Below are positions 3,011 to 11,133 of a stretch of 13,500 nucleotides of DNA, one piece after another. A program made the position numbers and the translations under genes. Origin of the DNA: Candidatus Aerophobota bacterium (lineage in GTDB: Bacteria; Aerophobota; Aerophobia; Aerophobales; JAGGXI01); the NCBI GenBank assembly GCA_021163155.1, contig JAGGXI010000023.1, positions 1 through 13,500 on the forward strand. The letters are read 5' to 3'. Within the stretch, counting starts at the first letter, position 1. Each line of letters starts with the position of its first letter. The notes under the pieces were generated by a model, which made no database searches, was not told the DNA's origin, and saw only the letters and a program-made list of their open reading frames with translations.

Positions 3011-4003
3011 ATGCTAATGAAAGGAAGAAGGGGAGTATTGATACGTAGGGGAATAATAGTAAGTTTAGTGCTTTCTTGCATATTATGGGTTCAAATTCCG
3101 GCAAGAGCACAAGAAAATTCATTGGAGGAGCAATTAAAAAAAGCTAAAGTGGCAATTGCTGACCAGAAATGGATAATAGAAAAACTCAAAGATAACTTTT
3201 TCGAAACAGTAGCTGTATTAAATAAGAAAATAGACTCTTTAAAGGCTACCAATGATGAACAGGCAAAAACTATAAAGCGACTTGTCAGTAATTACCTTGC
3301 AATAACAAAGGAACTAAATGGGAAAATAGACTCTCTCGAAGCTACCAATGCTGATCAGACAAAAACTATAGAGTTAAAGGAAAAAGAGATAAAACAGCTC
3401 ACCAGTAATTACCTTGCAATAACAGAAGAGCTAAAGGGGAAAATAGTATCTTTAAAGTCCACAACAGAAGATTTAAATAAGAAAATAGCCTCTTTAAAGG
3501 CTACCAATGATGAGCAGGCAAAAACTATAAAGCGACTTGTCAGTAATTACTTTGCAGTAACAAAGGAACTAAATGGGAAAATAGACTCTTTAAAAGCTAC
3601 CAATGCTGATCAGACAAAAACTATAGAGTTAAAGGAAAAAGAGATAAAACAGCTCACCAGTAATTACCTTGCAGTAACAAAGGAACTAAATGGGAAAATA
3701 GCCTCTCTCGAAGCTACCAATGCTGATCAGACAAAAACTATAGATAGCTTAAATAAAACAATGGTAAGCTTGAATGAAAAAGTAAATTTTCTCAAGGAAA
3801 AAGCAGCCAATCAAGCAAAAGTAATTGCAGAGATAAGAGAAAAATGGTCCCAGGAGATAAGCGCAAAGGAAGAAGAATTAACCTCTCTTAAGAAAATTAA
3901 CGAAAAGCAGGCAAAAATAATTAAAAAAGATAAAACAACAAAGTGGTTATTGGGATTAGGGGTAATAGCTGCGTATTTTGTTGGTCAATGCTCTGGTCAA
4001 TGA
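3011..4003 (+). CDS. Exported coiled-coil repeat protein with C-terminal hydrophobic segment
   Basis: I do not recognise a named family. The 330-residue product starts with a basic n-region and a hydrophobic stretch that fit a Sec signal peptide, with likely cleavage after ARA at residue 33. Residues 35-305 are predicted coiled coil, with I/L at heptad spacing and many K, E, N, T and Q. Inside are two tandem units of 85 residues (71-155 and 156-240), each built of modules of the type KIDSLKATN...QTKTI and SNYLAITKELN. Residues 311-326 (WLLGLGVIAAYFVGQC) form a short hydrophobic tail that may span or enter a membrane. AAGGAGGAG lies six bases before the start. The LysM gene follows after 34 bases. 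A structural role spanning or lining the envelope is my inference; a lipobox reading at C23 (VLSC) is weak. Confidence 0.75.
   Translation: MLMKGRRGVLIRRGIIVSLVLSCILWVQIPARAQENSLEEQLKKAKVAIADQKWIIEKLKDNFFETVAVLNKKIDSLKATNDEQAKTIKRLVSNYLAITKELNGKIDSLEATNADQTKTIELKEKEIKQLTSNYLAITEELKGKIVSLKSTTEDLNKKIASLKATNDEQAKTIKRLVSNYFAVTKELNGKIDSLKATNADQTKTIELKEKEIKQLTSNYLAVTKELNGKIASLEATNADQTKTIDSLNKTMVSLNEKVNFLKEKAANQAKVIAEIREKWSQEISAKEEELTSLKKINEKQAKIIKKDKTTKWLLGLGVIAAYFVGQCSGQ
3226..3735 (+). repeat. Direct 255-bp tandem duplication inside the coiled-coil gene
   Basis: The second unit repeats the first at a period of exactly 255 bases (for example 3241 against 3496), with long identical stretches and only scattered substitutions. 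The period is 85 codons, so the frame is kept. Within each unit a shorter repeat is visible as KIDSLKATN or KIASLEATN about every 32-39 residues. Such identity at the DNA level, including third positions, points to a recent duplication or to gene conversion between the units. Confidence 0.85.
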
Positions 4004-4037: not shown

Positions 4038-4745
4038 ATGTTAAAGAAAATAAGAGTAATATTAATAGTAATGATAGGGCTGTTTTTATTAGTAGGTAAT
4101 GTGGGTGTTGCTGAAGAAGTTCCCACTACTATAGAGAATCTTTTAAGAGAATTTAAGGATTTAAAGACAGATATTAGCCAAATAGAAAAGATGTCTAATA
4201 GAGCAGAGGAGTTTTCCTTAGATACATTTAAAGATACAGCTAAATTTAAGGAAACAGCGTTGGTTAAGTTGGGGCTATGGCGAACAGAGATGGCAGAGGA
4301 ATCGTTGGCAGCAATGGAAGCAATGCAAGCGATAGAGGAAAAAATCGCTAATATGCAGGCAGATATTTCTTTAGCTAAGGAGATGGCTGCAACAGCTAAG
4401 ATGCAGAGTGAACAAACGGGAAAAGAGCTTAGAGAGTTAGCAAAAAAGAGTGAAGAAAAGACCGATTTGCTAATGGCTAAAATAGACAATCTTTTAGAAA
4501 GAGTGAGGAAGTTAGAAAAAGGTATAGGAAAGAAGAAAGAAACTAAATTGAAATCTCCAAAAATTGGGCTAACTAATAATTTTTATTTAGTTAAAAAGAA
4601 CGACACTCTTTCTCGTATTGCTGGCACTAAGAATGTTTACGGGGACCCTTTAAAATGGGAAAAAATTTACAAGGTTAATAAAGATAGGATTAAGAATCCT
4701 AATTTAATTTATCCTGGGCAAAGATTGATAATTCCCAAGGAATAA
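4038..4745 (+). CDS. Exported coiled-coil protein with C-terminal LysM domain
   Basis: The 235-residue protein has a signal peptide (residues 1-25, KK followed by a long hydrophobic core, cleavage near GVA|EE), a mostly helical region at about 30-165 rich in A, E, K and M, and one LysM domain at about 181-235. The LysM is plain: YLVKKNDTLSRIAG, a tryptophan and KVNKDRI in the middle, and LIYPGQRLIIP at the end. LysM domains bind the N-acetylglucosamine part of peptidoglycan, so the protein should be held at the cell wall after export. No catalytic domain is present, so it is more likely a tether or scaffold than a hydrolase. A strong GGGAGGTG precedes the start, and it shares the promoter of the coiled-coil gene 34 bases upstream. 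A joint function of the two is an inference from operon and design. Confidence 0.85.
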   Translation: MLKKIRVILIVMIGLFLLVGNVGVAEEVPTTIENLLREFKDLKTDISQIEKMSNRAEEFSLDTFKDTAKFKETALVKLGLWRTEMAEESLAAMEAMQAIEEKIANMQADISLAKEMAATAKMQSEQTGKELRELAKKSEEKTDLLMAKIDNLLERVRKLEKGIGKKKETKLKSPKIGLTNNFYLVKKNDTLSRIAGTKNVYGDPLKWEKIYKVNKDRIKNPNLIYPGQRLIIPKE

Positions 4746-5133: not shown

Positions 5134-5286
5134 TTACTCCTTTTTCCTTTGTTGTTTTTTTTCTAAATGAGAAATTATATCTAAAAATTGTTGATTATTT
5201 TCTGTTTTTTCCATTACCTCTATAATTGCCTCAACAGGTTCCTTGAGATTTTGACGATTGAGATAGTTTCTGAGAGCCCATACATC
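5134..5286 (-). pseudogene. rho: Out-of-frame C-terminal part of Rho
   Basis: In the -1 frame relative to the rho open reading frame, this stretch reads D-V-W-A-L-R-N-Y-L, goes on through [20 protein letters not shown], and ends in a short lysine-rich tail at a TAA (5136-5134). This is the expected end of Rho (compare ELQKMWILRK in E. coli). Joined to residue 372 of the main frame it gives about 422 residues against 419 in E. coli. The shift must lie at about 5281-5288, where one base seems to be missing. The restored gene would stop four bases before rpmE. A sequencing or assembly error, a real mutation and recoding are all possible; the site is not a good slippery heptamer. Confidence 0.85.
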
Positions 5287-6401
5287 TTAAGCTCTCTTTC
5301 GTTTAATAGTAGTTCTTCTTTTCTTGTGCCTGATCTATTTACATCAATAGCAGGAAAGATTCGTCGTTCAGCTAAGACCCTACTTAAACGTAATTCCATA
5401 TTTCCTGTCCCTTTGAATTCTTCAAAGATAACCTCATCCATCTTGCTTCCTGTTTCTATCAAAGCAGTAGCTAAAATTGTTAAACTTCCTCCTTCCTCCA
5501 CTTTTCTAGCAGCGCCGAAGAATTTTTTAGGATAATGCAATGTGTTAGCATCTATACCTCCAGAGAGAACTTTTCCACTGGAGGGAAGTACAAGATTATA
5601 AGCACGGGCTAATCTTGTAATGCTATCCAAAAGAATTACTACATCATGTCCTTGTTCTACTAATCTTTTAGCTTTTTCAATAACTAACTCTGCTACTCGA
5701 ATGTGATGTTTTGGGGGCTCATCAAAGGTAGAGAAGGCTACTTCTCCTTTTACTGAACGCTGCATATCGGTAACCTCTTCTGGCCGCTCATCAATGAGTA
5801 AAACTATAAGATCTATCTTCGGGTAATTAGTAGATATAGCATTGGCTATCTTCTGCAAAAGGATGGTTTTTCCTGTTTTTGGGGGAGCAACAATAAGACC
5901 TCTTTGTCCCTTTCCTAAAGGAGAGATGAGGTCAATCAAACGTGTTGAAATATCCTTAGAAATAGTTTCAAGGGTAATTCTTTCTCGGGGGTGAAGGGCG
6001 GTTAGATTCCCAAAGACAGTCCTTTCTCTTGCTTTTTCAGGGTCCTCTCCGTTTACATTCTCCACTTTTAATAGAGCAAAGTAATTTTCATTGTCTTTAG
6101 GAGGTCTTATTTGTCCACTTACTGTGTCTCCTTCTCTTAAATTAAAGCGTTTGATTTGGGATGGAGAAACATATATATCGTCCGGGCCTGAGAGATAATT
6201 AGAGCGGAGAAATCCATATCCTTCAGCTAAAATATCTATTATCCCTGAACCATAAACTATTTTTTCTTTATCAATTTCATCTTGAATGATTTTAAATATA
6301 AGGTCTTGTTTATTTAAATATTTATAGTTATCTATTTTCTTTTCGTTAGCTATTTTATGTAAACTAATAATTTCCTTTTTTTGTAATTCAGCAACATTCA
6401 C
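5220..6401 (-). CDS. rho: Transcription termination factor Rho, C-terminus cut by a frameshift
   Basis: Rho is the hexameric RNA helicase that ends transcription of untranslated RNA. Visible in order: the N-terminal helical domain (1-45), the OB-fold RNA-binding domain (about 50-118, with GYGFLRS and [13 protein letters not shown]), and the RecA-type motor with Walker A APPKTGKT (172-179), Walker B VVILLDS (254-260), the Q-loop region ([17 protein letters not shown]) and the arginine-finger segment SGTRKEELL (357-365). After K372 the frame leaves the family and stops at residue 393. The start is GTG at 6401 behind AAGGAGG, overlapping nnr by 14 bases. As read, the end of the motor domain is missing, so this product alone may not form an active hexamer. 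Confidence 0.9.
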
Positions 6402-7950
6402 TTTTTATCCTCCTTATTGTTTTTGGGATATTATTCAATATATCTCCTGCTATTAAACTTACCTCTCCCTTTGTTTGAACAGCTAAATCCGCTGCTGCTC
6501 CATGTAAATATGCTCCCAACTTTGCTGCTGTTAACGCGGAGAATCCCTGTACTAACAATCCGCCAATTATTCCTGTAAGGACATCTCCGCTTCCTCCAGT
6601 AGCCATTCCTGGGTTTCCCGTAGAGTTAATCCAGATATTACCTTCTTTATCTGCAATTACAGTTCTTGCTCCTTTTAACAAAACAATTCCTCCTGTATTT
6701 TTAGCTAAATTAAGAGCGTAATTTATTCTCTTCTTTTGGATATCTTTTATAGAAATATGCAGGAGTCTACTCAACTCTCCCGGATGAGGGGTGAGAATTA
6801 AGGGAGCCTTATATTCAGTGAGCAAAGTAATTTCACCGCTAAGTGCATTTATTCCATCCGCATCTATAATTAAAGGAACAGTTAATTGTTTTAGCATCAT
6901 TCTTACCAGCTCCATGGTTTCTTGATGAGTAGAAATCCCCGGTCCCAACGCTATAGCTTTGCATTTCTTACTAAACTCTTCTATTTTTTTTAGTGCTTTA
7001 CAAGATAAACTTCCTTCTTCAGTTTGAGGTAAGGGAAGAGTCATAGTTTCGGTTAATTTAACCTCTAAGATTGTATTTAAACTTTCAGGAATTCCTAAGG
7101 TTACCAGTCCTGCTCCTGCCCTTAAAGCAGCAAGAGAGGTCAAAGTAGCTGCTCCTGTCATTCCTCTGGAGCCAGCTATAACTAATAGATGGCCAAAATC
7201 ACCTTTATGAGAAGACAATTTTCTCTTAAATATATCTTTTGGTATATCGGCTAATGTAAAAAGATTACATTTAGTTTTAACTTTTAGAGTATGAGGAATG
7301 CCTATATCTGCTACTTTTATTTTGCCTGCATAATCCATACATGGGTATAAATATAAACCTTGTTTGGGGTAAGCGAAAGTTACCGTGCAATCTGCCTTAA
7401 TAGCCTCCCCTTCTACTTCTCCTGTATCGGCATTTACTCCTGTGGGAATATCTACAGCTACTATATTTCTACTGTATCTATTAATTAAAGAGACTATTTC
7501 TTTCATTATACCTCGGGGAGCTCCCTTTGCTCCTGTGCCTAAAATTGCATCTACTACTATATCTGTTACTTTAAGTACTTTAAGCTCTTCTTCTAATTTT
7601 TTTATCTCTTCGGGAGAGGTAATCTCTTTTATTGACATTCCTAAATTAAGGGCAATGTTTAAGTTTATATCTGCCTCACCCTTTATTTTCTCTTTTTTCC
7701 CCAAAAGAAATAATTTTACTTTTATTCCTTCATTAAAAAGAAGTCTTGCTACTACCATTCCGTCCCCTCCATTATTACCAGGGCCAGAAAATATGTAAAT
7801 AGATTTTTCCTTTAAAGGAAAATATTCTTCTTTTAGTGTTTTTACTACTGCTTGACCAGCATTTTCCATAAGTAATATTGCCGGAATGCCTATAGAATTT
7901 ATTGCTTCTTTATCAATTTCTCGCATTTTTTCAGCAGTTACTAATTTCAT
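6388..7950 (-). CDS. nnr: Bifunctional NAD(P)H-hydrate epimerase / ADP-dependent dehydratase
   Basis: This metabolite-repair enzyme restores damaged NADH and NADPH. The N-terminal half (YjeF_N, about 1-230) epimerises R- and S-hydrates and shows MENAG (28-32), GPGNNGGDG (56-64), DAILGTG (134-140) and VDIPTG (166-171). The C-terminal half (about 240-515) is the ribokinase-like dehydratase, with [14 protein letters not shown] (248-261), [22 protein letters not shown] (387-392) and [11 protein letters not shown] (448-458), where D456 is the expected catalytic base. The 520 residues are the usual length of the fused bacterial form, and no key residue is missing. The ATG follows AGGAG and overlaps acpS by 20 bases; the end overlaps rho by 14. 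The acpS-nnr pairing is seen in many bacteria. Confidence 0.95.
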
Positions 7951-8323
7951 TGCCTTCTCCTATGGCTACCGCCTCAGCTATAGCATAACTCATATCATGA
8001 GAGATGGTAACCAAAACTGATTTTATTTTTTTTTCTTCAGCGATTTTTTTAATTTTTCCTTTAAGATTAATATAAGGTTTTCCTTCTTTTGTTGATAATA
8101 TTTGTACATCTTGCCAGGATGTATTAACTCCTAAAGATTTGAATACAGCTTCTTTAGCGGCAAATCTTCCTCCAAGGTGGATTGACTTTGTTTCCCCTTT
8201 TCTTTTTTGGCAATTTATTTCCTGGGAGGTAAGGATTCTCTTTTCAAATTTTTCTCCCCATTTTAAAATACTCTTTCTTAATCTATCTATATTAACTATA
8301 TCTATTCCAATTCCCTTAATCAT
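7931..8323 (-). CDS. acpS: Holo-[acyl-carrier-protein] synthase
   Basis: AcpS transfers the 4'-phosphopantetheine arm of coenzyme A to a serine of acyl carrier protein, which activates fatty acid synthesis in the cytoplasm. The 130-residue protein has the family's usual size and motifs: GIGIDIVNI (4-12, with the magnesium ligand D8), GRFAAKEAVFKSLG (52-65, with the second ligand E58) and VTISHDMSYAIA (105-116). It starts with ATG four bases after the stop of the pdxJ-like gene, behind an AGAGGATAG site, and overlaps nnr by 20 bases. In many bacteria pdxJ and acpS are neighbours, so this is ordinary synteny even though this pdxJ is unusual. Confidence 0.95.
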   Translation of the reverse strand: MIKGIGIDIVNIDRLRKSILKWGEKFEKRILTSQEINCQKRKGETKSIHLGGRFAAKEAVFKSLGVNTSWQDVQILSTKEGKPYINLKGKIKKIAEEKKIKSVLVTISHDMSYAIAEAVAIGEGNEISNC

Positions 8324-8327
8324 AAAC

Positions 8328-9038
8328 CTATCCTCTAATTAAATTTACCATCTCCCTTACAGCCTCTTTCATTCCCACTAAACAAGCTCGAGAGATAACA
8401 GAATGACCTATATTAAATTCTTCAATGTCTTCTATTAAACATATTTTTTTTATGTTATGATAATTCAATCCACATCCAATACTTACTCCTAAATCAAATT
8501 TTTTTGCTAAGGCAGCTGCTCCAGCAATTTTTTCTAATTGTGTAGCAGCTTCTAAATAGTTTTTAGCTGACGTATATAATCCTGCATGCAACTCTACTAT
8601 ATCTGCTCCCCATCTATGAGCTTTTTTTATACTCTCTGAATTTGGATTAACTAATAAGGAGATTAAAATACCTCTTTCGTGAAGAAGAGAGATTACCTCT
8701 TTTAATCGAAGATTGTTTTTTGAAAAATTTAAACCACCTTCCCCACTTATCTCTCTCTTTTTTTCTGGAATTATAGTTACCATGTCCGGTTTTATATTAA
8801 GAGCGATTTTTACTACTTTTTCATTTATTCCTATCTCTAAATTTAGGCTGGTTTTTATTATTGCTCGCAGAAGATTTAAATCTCTTTCTTTAATATATTT
8901 CTCGTCTTCTCTTAAATATATGCTGATTCCTTTTGCTCCTCCAAGTTCTGCTAAGATAGCAATAGGTACGAAGTCAGGTTCTTCAAAATTTTGACGAAGA
9001 ATAGCTATATCATTAATATCTATATTTAGTTCTGGCAT
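8328..9038 (-). CDS. pdxJ: PdxJ-like barrel protein lacking the catalytic histidines
   Basis: By overall sequence and length (236 residues) this is a homologue of pyridoxine 5'-phosphate synthase, which joins 1-deoxy-xylulose 5-phosphate and 3-amino-2-oxopropyl phosphate in the last ring-forming step of vitamin B6 synthesis. Fold motifs are kept: YLRED (41-45), NLEIG (66-70), PEKKRE (91-96), GEGGL (99-103), VELHAG (148-153) and GLNYHN, then FNIGH (208-212). Against E. coli PdxJ, aligned by eye, the active site has changed: H45 is Y41, H193 is C189, H52 is Y48, N9 is D7, D11-H12 are N9-D10, and R20 is probably F18. R47 (R43), E72 (E68) and the G-H pair near the end remain. Standard PdxJ activity is therefore doubtful, and the symbol marks homology only. 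It overlaps dapL by 13 bases and has no clear ribosome binding site, so it is probably translationally coupled. Confidence 0.8.
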   Translation of the reverse strand: MPELNIDINDIAILRQNFEEPDFVPIAILAELGGAKGISIYLREDEKYIKERDLNLLRAIIKTSLNLEIGINEKVVKIALNIKPDMVTIIPEKKREISGEGGLNFSKNNLRLKEVISLLHERGILISLLVNPNSESIKKAHRWGADIVELHAGLYTSAKNYLEAATQLEKIAGAAALAKKFDLGVSIGCGLNYHNIKKICLIEDIEEFNIGHSVISRACLVGMKEAVREMVNLIRG

Positions 9039-10222
9039 TTTAAAATTTCTTTATATATGGTTTTATCTTCTTTAATCCTTTTTACTGCTTCCTTTATCTT
9101 TTTTTCATCTACAGTTAAGGATATTCTAATGTAACCCTCTCCATAAGAGCCAAATCCAATCCCTGGAGTGACTGCTACTCCACATCGTTTCATTAGTTTT
9201 GCTGTAAATTCCATTGAAGAGAAGCCTCTTGGTATTTTTATCCATAAATAAAAAGTTGCTTTAGGGATTCTTATCTTCCAGCCTATCTCTCTTAAACTTT
9301 CTATCATAATATCTCTTCTTTTTTGATAAATCCCTCGTATTTTCTCGTTCAATTCTTCCTCTTTTTTAAGAGCCTCTATTCCTGCTTTCTGGATAGCCTG
9401 AAAAACACCAGAATCTATATTTGTCTTTACTTCACTTAAGACTTTAATTAATTCCTCATTTCCTACGGCAAAACCTATACGCCATCCAGTCATATTAAAG
9501 GTTTTTGAAAAAGAATGAAATTCTATTCCTACCTCTTTCCCTCCTTTTACTTCTAAAAAACTAAGAGGCCTGTGCCCATTAAAGAAGGTTTCTGAATAGG
9601 CTGCATCATGACATACTACAATATTAAACTTTTTAGCAAACTCTACCACTTCTTCAAAGAAATTTTTGCTGGCTACTGCTCCTGTAGGATTATGAGGATA
9701 GTTTAAAAATAGAATTTTTGCTTTTCGGGCTACTTTCTCTTCTATATCCTCCAAACAGGGAAGAAAGTCTTTTTCTTCAAGAAGAGGAACAGTAAAGGGT
9801 CTTCCTCCAGCAAAGATAACCCCTGCTTTATAGACAGGATAAGCTGGGTCAGGGACTAATGCTAAATCTCCGGGATTAATTAAACATAAAGAAAAATGAG
9901 CTATTCCCTCTTTAGAGCCAATTAAGGCAATAATTTCGTTTTGCGGGTCAAGTTTTACTCCGAATCTTCTTTTATACCATTGAGAAATAGCTTGACGAAA
10001 AGAGAGAAGACCTTCATATGAAGGATAGCGGTGGTTTTCTGGATTATAAGCTGCCTGCGATAATTTTTCAATAATAGGAGAAGGGGTAGGAAGATCAGGG
10101 TCTCCTATTCCTAAATCAATTAAATTTTCCCCTTTTTCTTCCGTCTTCTTTTTTAATTTATCCAAATCAGCAAATAGATAAGGAGGAATTTGAGTAAGTC
10201 TTTCTGCTTTTTTTATTTTCAT
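9026..10222 (-). CDS. dapL: LL-diaminopimelate aminotransferase
   Basis: This PLP enzyme converts tetrahydrodipicolinate directly to LL-diaminopimelate with glutamate as amino donor, bypassing the succinylase, acetylase and dehydrogenase routes. The 398 residues are a fold-type I aminotransferase. The N-terminus IDLGIGDPDLPTP (35-47) is typical of DapL. Other motifs are GSKEGIAH (102-109), NYPHNPTGA (174-182), DAAYSE (206-211), the PLP lysine K240 in SFSKTFNMTGWRIG, and the carboxylate-binding arginine R366 in YIRISL. The position downstream of dapB supports DapL rather than another aspartate-type aminotransferase. The ATG has no good Shine-Dalgarno; the nearest purine-rich GAGGT is about 20 bases away, and a stem-loop lies just upstream of that. 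Confidence 0.88.
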   Translation of the reverse strand: MKIKKAERLTQIPPYLFADLDKLKKKTEEKGENLIDLGIGDPDLPTPSPIIEKLSQAAYNPENHRYPSYEGLLSFRQAISQWYKRRFGVKLDPQNEIIALIGSKEGIAHFSLCLINPGDLALVPDPAYPVYKAGVIFAGGRPFTVPLLEEKDFLPCLEDIEEKVARKAKILFLNYPHNPTGAVASKNFFEEVVEFAKKFNIVVCHDAAYSETFFNGHRPLSFLEVKGGKEVGIEFHSFSKTFNMTGWRIGFAVGNEELIKVLSEVKTNIDSGVFQAIQKAGIEALKKEEELNEKIRGIYQKRRDIMIESLREIGWKIRIPKATFYLWIKIPRGFSSMEFTAKLMKRCGVAVTPGIGFGSYGEGYIRISLTVDEKKIKEAVKRIKEDKTIYKEILKCQN

Positions 10223-10316: not shown

Positions 10317-11105
10317 TTACTTCTCACGTCTCACTTTCAAGGCATCCCTGAGAGTGTAGAACCCATTTTTCTGTTTTGCAATAAATTTAGCTCCAAAAAG
10401 AGCTCCTTGAGCAAAAATGTAGCGGGATTCTGCTCGATGCGTAATCTCTAACTCTTCTTCATTACCAGCAAAAATTATTTTATGCTCTCCTACAATGGTT
10501 CCCCCTCTTACAGCATGAATCCCTATCTCTTCCTTACTTCTCTCGCCAATTTTTCCTTTTCTCCCATATACTCCAACCTCAGATAATCTTTTCCCTTCAG
10601 CCTCAGCTATAATTTGAGCAAATTTTTTTGCTGTTCCACTGGGAGCATCTTTTTTATGTCTATGGTGGAATTCTATGATTTCTTTATCAAAATCTTTTCC
10701 TAAGAGATAAGTTATCTCTCCTATTAGATTAAAGAGAAGATTAATTCCTATGCTCATATTAGGAGAAAGAAGTATGGGGATATTTAAAGAACTCTCTTTT
10801 ATTTTAGCCTCTTCTTCCTCTGTAAATCCTGTTGTTCCAATTACTATAGGAGTCCCCCTTTTTTCCGCAATATTGAGATGATTTATGCTTGCCTTTGGTG
10901 TAGTAAATTCAATGATAACTGCATCCTTTTGGATAATTCTTTCTAAATTAGAAGTAAGCTCAATTCCTTTTATTACCTTCCCTATAGAGGGATGATTCGG
11001 AGCTTCTATTGCTCCTATTAGTTTTGTCTCTTTCTCCTGGAAAACTGCATCTATTACCTTTTTACCCATTCTTCCACAAGCACCGCAAACAATTATTTGA
11101 AGCAT
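10317..11105 (-). CDS. dapB: 4-hydroxy-tetrahydrodipicolinate reductase
   Basis: DapB reduces hydroxy-tetrahydrodipicolinate with NAD(P)H to tetrahydrodipicolinate, the substrate of DapL next in the operon. The 262-residue protein has the dinucleotide-binding loop VCGACGRMG (6-14), EFTTP (66-70), GTTGF (90-94) and the diagnostic catalytic segment FHHRHKKDAPSGTA (146-159), followed by HAVRGG and GEHKIIF. I place the start at the ATG at 11105 because GGAG lies six bases before it; the frame could extend to a TTG at 11117, but that codon has no ribosome binding site. It is the first gene of the leftward cluster that ends in rpmE. The other DAP genes (dapA, dapF) are not in this window. Confidence 0.95.
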   Translation of the reverse strand: MLQIIVCGACGRMGKKVIDAVFQEKETKLIGAIEAPNHPSIGKVIKGIELTSNLERIIQKDAVIIEFTTPKASINHLNIAEKRGTPIVIGTTGFTEEEEAKIKESSLNIPILLSPNMSIGINLLFNLIGEITYLLGKDFDKEIIEFHHRHKKDAPSGTAKKFAQIIAEAEGKRLSEVGVYGRKGKIGERSKEEIGIHAVRGGTIVGEHKIIFAGNEEELEITHRAESRYIFAQGALFGAKFIAKQKNGFYTLRDALKVRREK

Positions 11106-11133
11106 TTTTTTCTCCAATCTTTTTATAATTATT

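Follow-up and report, generated by a model that had tools for sequence, protein, structure and literature searches.

What keeps a pdxJ gene intact when most of the active site of its product has been replaced? The question is posed by an open reading frame of 236 amino acids on the minus strand of a 13,500-nucleotide stretch of Candidatus Aerophobota DNA, hereafter the window, which runs uninterrupted from an ATG start at position 9038 to position 8328. The window belongs to a MAG of 1.83 Mb, 93% complete, which is the sole representative of its family among the 17 genomes of the phylum in our collection.

An orthologue of pdxJ in a conserved operon

By homology, the encoded protein is a member of the PdxJ family. 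It matches the Pfam PdxJ profile (PF03740) over its full length with 249.9 bits (cut-off 24.5) and TIGR00559 with 217.9 bits, above the cut-off of 192.75, and a sequence search of the PDB returns E. coli PdxJ (1m5w) as the nearest solved structure (E = 9e-53). The AF2 model (pLDDT 87, pTM 0.87) has the PdxJ-type TIM barrel: in Foldseek comparisons it aligns with most PdxJ structures at TM-scores of 0.91–0.95, as opposed to 0.6–0.7 for other families. Only residues 17–19, in a loop discussed below, fall below a pLDDT of 50. The profile matches and the predicted barrel thus bear out the original prediction that the motifs of the fold are kept.

The gene is packed into an operon whose order, dapB-dapL-pdxJ-acpS-nnrDE-rho, is conserved in relatives with small variations, all genes lying on the minus strand of the window. 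Upstream, dapB (10317..11117) is followed by dapL (9026..10222), which encodes the PLP-dependent LL-diaminopimelate aminotransferase (TIGR03540, 622 bits) and overlaps the start of pdxJ by 13 nt. Downstream, acpS (7931..8323, family match) starts 4 nt after the pdxJ stop, with its Shine-Dalgarno-like AGAGGA inside the last pdxJ codons, followed by nnrDE (6388..7950, family match and gene order), for NAD(P)H-hydrate repair, and rho (5220..6401), an open reading frame 73–84% identical to those of relatives; dapB and rho are placed by conserved order and named by sequence recognition. The frame is intact in a tight operon, as noted earlier from the sequence, and the pdxJ-acpS order noted with it is also that of the phylum relatives. 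Elsewhere in the window, positions 3011-4003 encode a coiled-coil protein with internal repeats of KEIKQLTSNYLAITKELNGKI-like units, and the next protein, from 4038-4745, has a C-terminus that is LysM-like; each of the two has matches beside rho in genome G016 (L047).

PdxJ proteins of phylum relatives are 46–62% identical to the window protein, and in a tree of all collected sequences one clade (support 0.999) unites the window protein with its 14 full-length relatives from the phylum. The window gene is thus both the positional and the phylogenetic orthologue of an ordinary pdxJ. No second PdxJ was found in the window genome, and when named genomes were searched by pattern for close relatives, only four canonical PdxJ proteins turned up, 43–47% identical. 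One phylum genome, G006, is without PdxJ; its nnrDE lies in a different context and is therefore uninformative on deletion of pdxJ from the operon.

Replacement of the active site

To compare residues, we used MAFFT to align the window protein with PdxJ of E. coli and some 45 further PdxJ proteins, scoring 14 positions in E. coli numbering: N9, D11, H12, R20, H45, R47, H52, E72, T102, E153, H193, G194, G215 and H216. In the E. coli enzyme we take the acid/base residues to be H45, E72 and H193 (roles as in curated annotation), the ligands of DXP to be D11, H12, R47, H52 and T102, and those of 3-amino-2-oxopropyl phosphate to be N9, R20, G194 and G215-H216. In the window protein the first set reads Y/E/C, the second N/D/R/Y/S and the third D/deleted/G/G-H, and none of the three is what an active PNP synthase would carry. 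Seven positions are substituted (N9D, D11N, H12D, H45Y, H52Y, T102S and H193C) and R20 falls in a two-residue deletion that shortens its loop from ARGTAYPDP to --NFEEPDF, so that 8 of the 14 are lost and R47, E72, E153, G194, G215 and H216 are kept.

On the minus strand of the window, the catalytic histidines H45 and H193 correspond to the codons of Y41 (8916..8918) and C189 (8472..8474), as originally proposed from an alignment by eye; no histidine stands at either position. The alignment likewise reproduces the replacement of the substrate ligands in E. coli N9-I10-D11-H12 by D7-I8-N9-D10 (9009..9020), and of H52 by Y48 (8895..8897). Two earlier details needed correction: R20 is indeed lost, by deletion rather than by substitution to F, and R47, E72 and the terminal phosphate-site pair G211-H212 (8403..8408; E. 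coli G215-H216) are not the only residues kept, E153 and G194 being kept as well. Changes that the earlier list lacked are those of T102 (now S98), T103 (G), R50 (E) and T156 (A).

The same positions are stable elsewhere. Y41 and C189 are not shared by relatives: all phylum members were searched, and their PdxJ proteins retain H45 and H193. All 14 positions are intact in 11 of the 14 relatives, the exceptions being G003 (G194D), G005 (E72Q, G194A) and G014 (N9K, G194D); since an improved E. coli PdxJ has G194C among its substitutions (PMC10471632), changes at G194 need not inactivate. Because about 97 PdxJ proteins were aligned and 68 of them have the canonical residue at every position, and the most altered other PdxJ of the phylum is changed at 2 of 14, the pattern in the window protein is not chance. 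Whether change is concentrated at catalytic positions is a separate matter, on which the counts are suggestive (8 of 14 lost, against 12 of 41 other conserved columns; Fisher p = 0.11, not significant). Judged from these residues and from the genomic context, the PNP synthase activity of the protein has very probably been lost.

Deletion of pdxA and the state of the B6 pathway

PdxA, which supplies the substrate and would be expected in a genome with an active PNP synthase, gave no PF04166 match in profile searches of the window genome. PdxS, whose route the original prediction proposed to look for, gave no match either (PF01680), and PdxS and PNPOx_N (PdxH) are absent from all 17 phylum genomes. 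Matches to pyridoxal kinase (PF08543) are weak and partial, as sugar kinases would give; the best one of the window genome scores 27.6 bits, and none of the 17 genomes shows a clear pyridoxal kinase. Dxs is present in the window genome (404 bits). Across the phylum, a strong Dxs match occurs in only 5 of 17 genomes, the rest giving transketolase-like partial matches; nearly all 17 have PdxJ, whose reaction needs DXP.

The site of the loss can be located. In five relatives pdxA directly follows ftsA, and in four of these ahcY comes next (gene names that we assign by sequence recognition). Only about 100 bases, with no pdxA among them, lie between ftsA and ahcY in the window genome (G000; L137:1863-1985); ftsA-pdxA-ahcY is the ancestral arrangement, and pdxA has been deleted. 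Such junctions, with pdxA cleanly absent, occur in G001 (L138:1865-1888) and G012 (L143:226-306) as well, and G014 has a degraded pdxA remnant between ftsA and ahcY (L145:3340-3640). G012 does have a pdxA-family gene at another site; the gene next to it resembles four-carbon sugar-acid kinases, the neighbour that a PdxA2-type gene would be expected to have. Since pdxA is absent or broken in several lineages, the DXP-dependent pathway is being dismantled in the phylum.

Because pdxA and pdxJ are about 8 kb apart in two relatives, we also considered that pdxA might have been lost at the contig edge; the ftsA-ahcY junction argues against this. An unlinked PdxA-like or PdxS gene could lie in the missing part of the MAG. 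Loss of pdxA alone is insufficient to explain the change in PdxJ, because G001 lacks pdxA between ftsA and ahcY and keeps a canonical PdxJ; another source of substrate in G001, or a recent loss of pdxA there, is possible.

Probable selection on the protein

The window branch accounts for 0.20 of total tree length in PdxJ, about twice the 0.08–0.10 of DapL, AcpS and NnrDE, neighbours that are not accelerated in this lineage. The acceleration is concentrated in family-conserved columns: in 62 of these the window branch makes up 0.518 of a total of 0.73, and in 180 variable columns it is near normal (0.485, against 0.41 in two other deep lineages). A rise in conserved columns only argues against uniform drift, which would raise both classes. 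Hydrophobic columns remain hydrophobic in 88 of 89 cases, and the window protein agrees with its relatives at 65 of the 89 columns in which they do not vary. When neutral drift was simulated on the AT-rich window gene, 20 amino-acid changes left 12% of runs with a frame free of stop codons, and 45 changes left 0.2%. As read from one genome of the family rather than from within-family rates, the fold of the protein is probably still under selection.

The main rival to this interpretation is that pdxJ became useless once pdxA was lost and is a young pseudogene, drifting, that has not yet met a stop codon. The deletion or degradation of pdxA in several lineages (ftsA adjacent to ahcY in G000, G001 and G012; the remnant in G014), the single losses in relatives (N9K and G194D in G014, E72Q in G005) and the doubled overall branch length are what such a history would leave. 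We nevertheless consider it unlikely, given the confinement of the acceleration to conserved columns, the 88 of 89 hydrophobic columns, and a neutral span that, if sufficient for the excess changes, would nearly always have produced a stop, even with indels uncounted.

The frame, rather than the protein, could instead be selected, with the reading frame kept for translational coupling only. The overlap with dapL, the 4-nt spacer to acpS and the ribosome-binding motif within the last codons all fit. For this purpose an open frame suffices, however, and neither a hydrophobic core, nor a phosphate site, nor normal rates in variable columns would be required; moreover, the surroundings of pdxJ differ in some relatives, with, for example, dapB immediately before it or some 400 bases separating it from acpS. 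Coupling as the whole explanation is improbable.

A PNP synthase with a changed mechanism, in which Y41 and C189 serve as acid/base residues and 3-amino-2-oxopropyl phosphate comes from another source, would account for the retention of R47, E72, E153, G194 and the G-H pair, and Dxs in the genome and the canonical PdxJ of G001 without PdxA would be in keeping with it. It is very improbable, as the ligands of both substrates are replaced (N9, D11, H12, H52 and T102) or lost (R20), and the genome has no PdxA-family gene and no PNPOx. An artefact of assembly or binning is scarcely credible: the MAG contig is only 13.5 kb long, but the identities and order of the flanking genes fit the phylum, and seven coherent substitutions in an intact frame are not sequencing errors.

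A folded protein probably retained after loss of PNP synthase activity

With the active site replaced, pdxA gone and the columns of the fold constrained, the activity is very probably lost and the fold probably selected. The account that we favour, and hold to be fairly probable, is that this pdxJ orthologue lost PNP synthase activity in the window lineage, where pdxA was deleted as well, and that its product persists as a folded protein that is not a PNP synthase. The change in PdxJ would then belong to the dismantling of the pathway rather than to an altered mechanism for one and the same reaction, which the original prediction, made without knowledge of the pdxA deletion, also allowed for. 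Of its wider claim, the loss of the site and the selection on frame and fold are supported, and another reaction or a regulatory role would be a candidate for the new function. That the phosphate-site glycines and R47 survive points to a protein that binds a phosphorylated ligand: the barrel may still bind a small phosphorylated ligand through the phosphate site (G190 and G211-H212) and R43, and the protein may act in binding, buffering or regulation. An enzyme of another reaction using Y41, C189 and E68 seems less likely. PLP would be supplied by uptake, which we assume.

A separate clade of altered PdxJ-like proteins

In a wider sample of genomes, G060 encodes a PdxJ-like protein in which almost every functional residue has been replaced. 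A search of the relatives of G060 gave twenty proteins of this kind that form one separate clade (support 0.96; loci L037 and L101-L119, the order of L106 and L107 being without meaning); the observation takes in genomes G060-G083, G087, G092, G093, G123, G125, G127, G129, G131, G133, G135 and G137. In a residue count that took the window protein as a 21st member, H193 is kept in none of the 20 and H45 and H12 in one each, and G215 is kept in all, G194 and R47 in most. PdxS is present in 21 of 22 tested genomes with a low-scoring PdxJ and in none of 10 with a canonical one, a grouping of the 32 genomes made partly by score, some of them without alignment. The operon often holds YibQ-like polysaccharide-deacetylase-like, HD-domain and HAD genes (names by sequence recognition). 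Of all the findings, this clade with its PdxS most strongly indicates that a PdxJ fold can persist without PNP synthase activity. Two PdxJ copies occur in G108 (second copy L120, G108:C72), G103, G111 and G121; the second copy of G108 has N11, K12 and D194.

Tentatively, the PdxJ barrel may have been repurposed at least twice, in the window lineage after loss of pdxA and in this clade after the switch to PdxS, as a phosphorylated-ligand binder, such as a carrier or sensor of B6 phosphates, or as an enzyme of another reaction.

Implications and comparison with known systems

PdxJ pseudoenzymes are not described in the open-licence papers searched. One survey of B6 pathways across genomes treats the presence of pdxJ as the signature of the DXP-dependent route and notes ten genomes with both pathways, the DXP-dependent one apparently incomplete (PMC9997740), some of which a clade like that of G060 could explain. 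Because the window gene and two of three tested G060-type proteins pass the NCBIfam PdxJ equivalog cut-off without the catalytic residues, the presence of pdxJ is not a safe marker of the DXP-dependent pathway, and such calls can be wrong. The phylum also offers, within one operon context, orthologues that form a natural pair, one apparently active and the other apparently inactive, and a cofactor pathway dismantled stepwise with one enzyme left standing.

Compared with E. coli PdxJ (1m5w/1ho1; TIGR00559, PF03740), the window protein shares fold, length, family scores, an operon position adjacent to acpS and orthology, with R47, E72, E153, G194, G215 and H216 in common, but it lacks the two acid/base histidines and most of the residues that bind the two substrates, its R20 loop is shorter, and its genome is without PdxA. 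With the G060-type clade it shares the loss of H193 and, with one exception among the 20, of H45, as well as the phosphate-site glycines and R47, usual there. It is not a member of that clade: in the tree it groups with its own phylum, and it lies in another operon, in a genome with no PdxS. A parallel outside the family is Arabidopsis PDX1.2, which belongs to the PdxS family, has no catalytic activity and supports active paralogues. The family is different, and in the window genome there is no active paralogue that the protein could assist; what the two proteins would have in common is a B6-synthase fold kept after the loss of catalysis.
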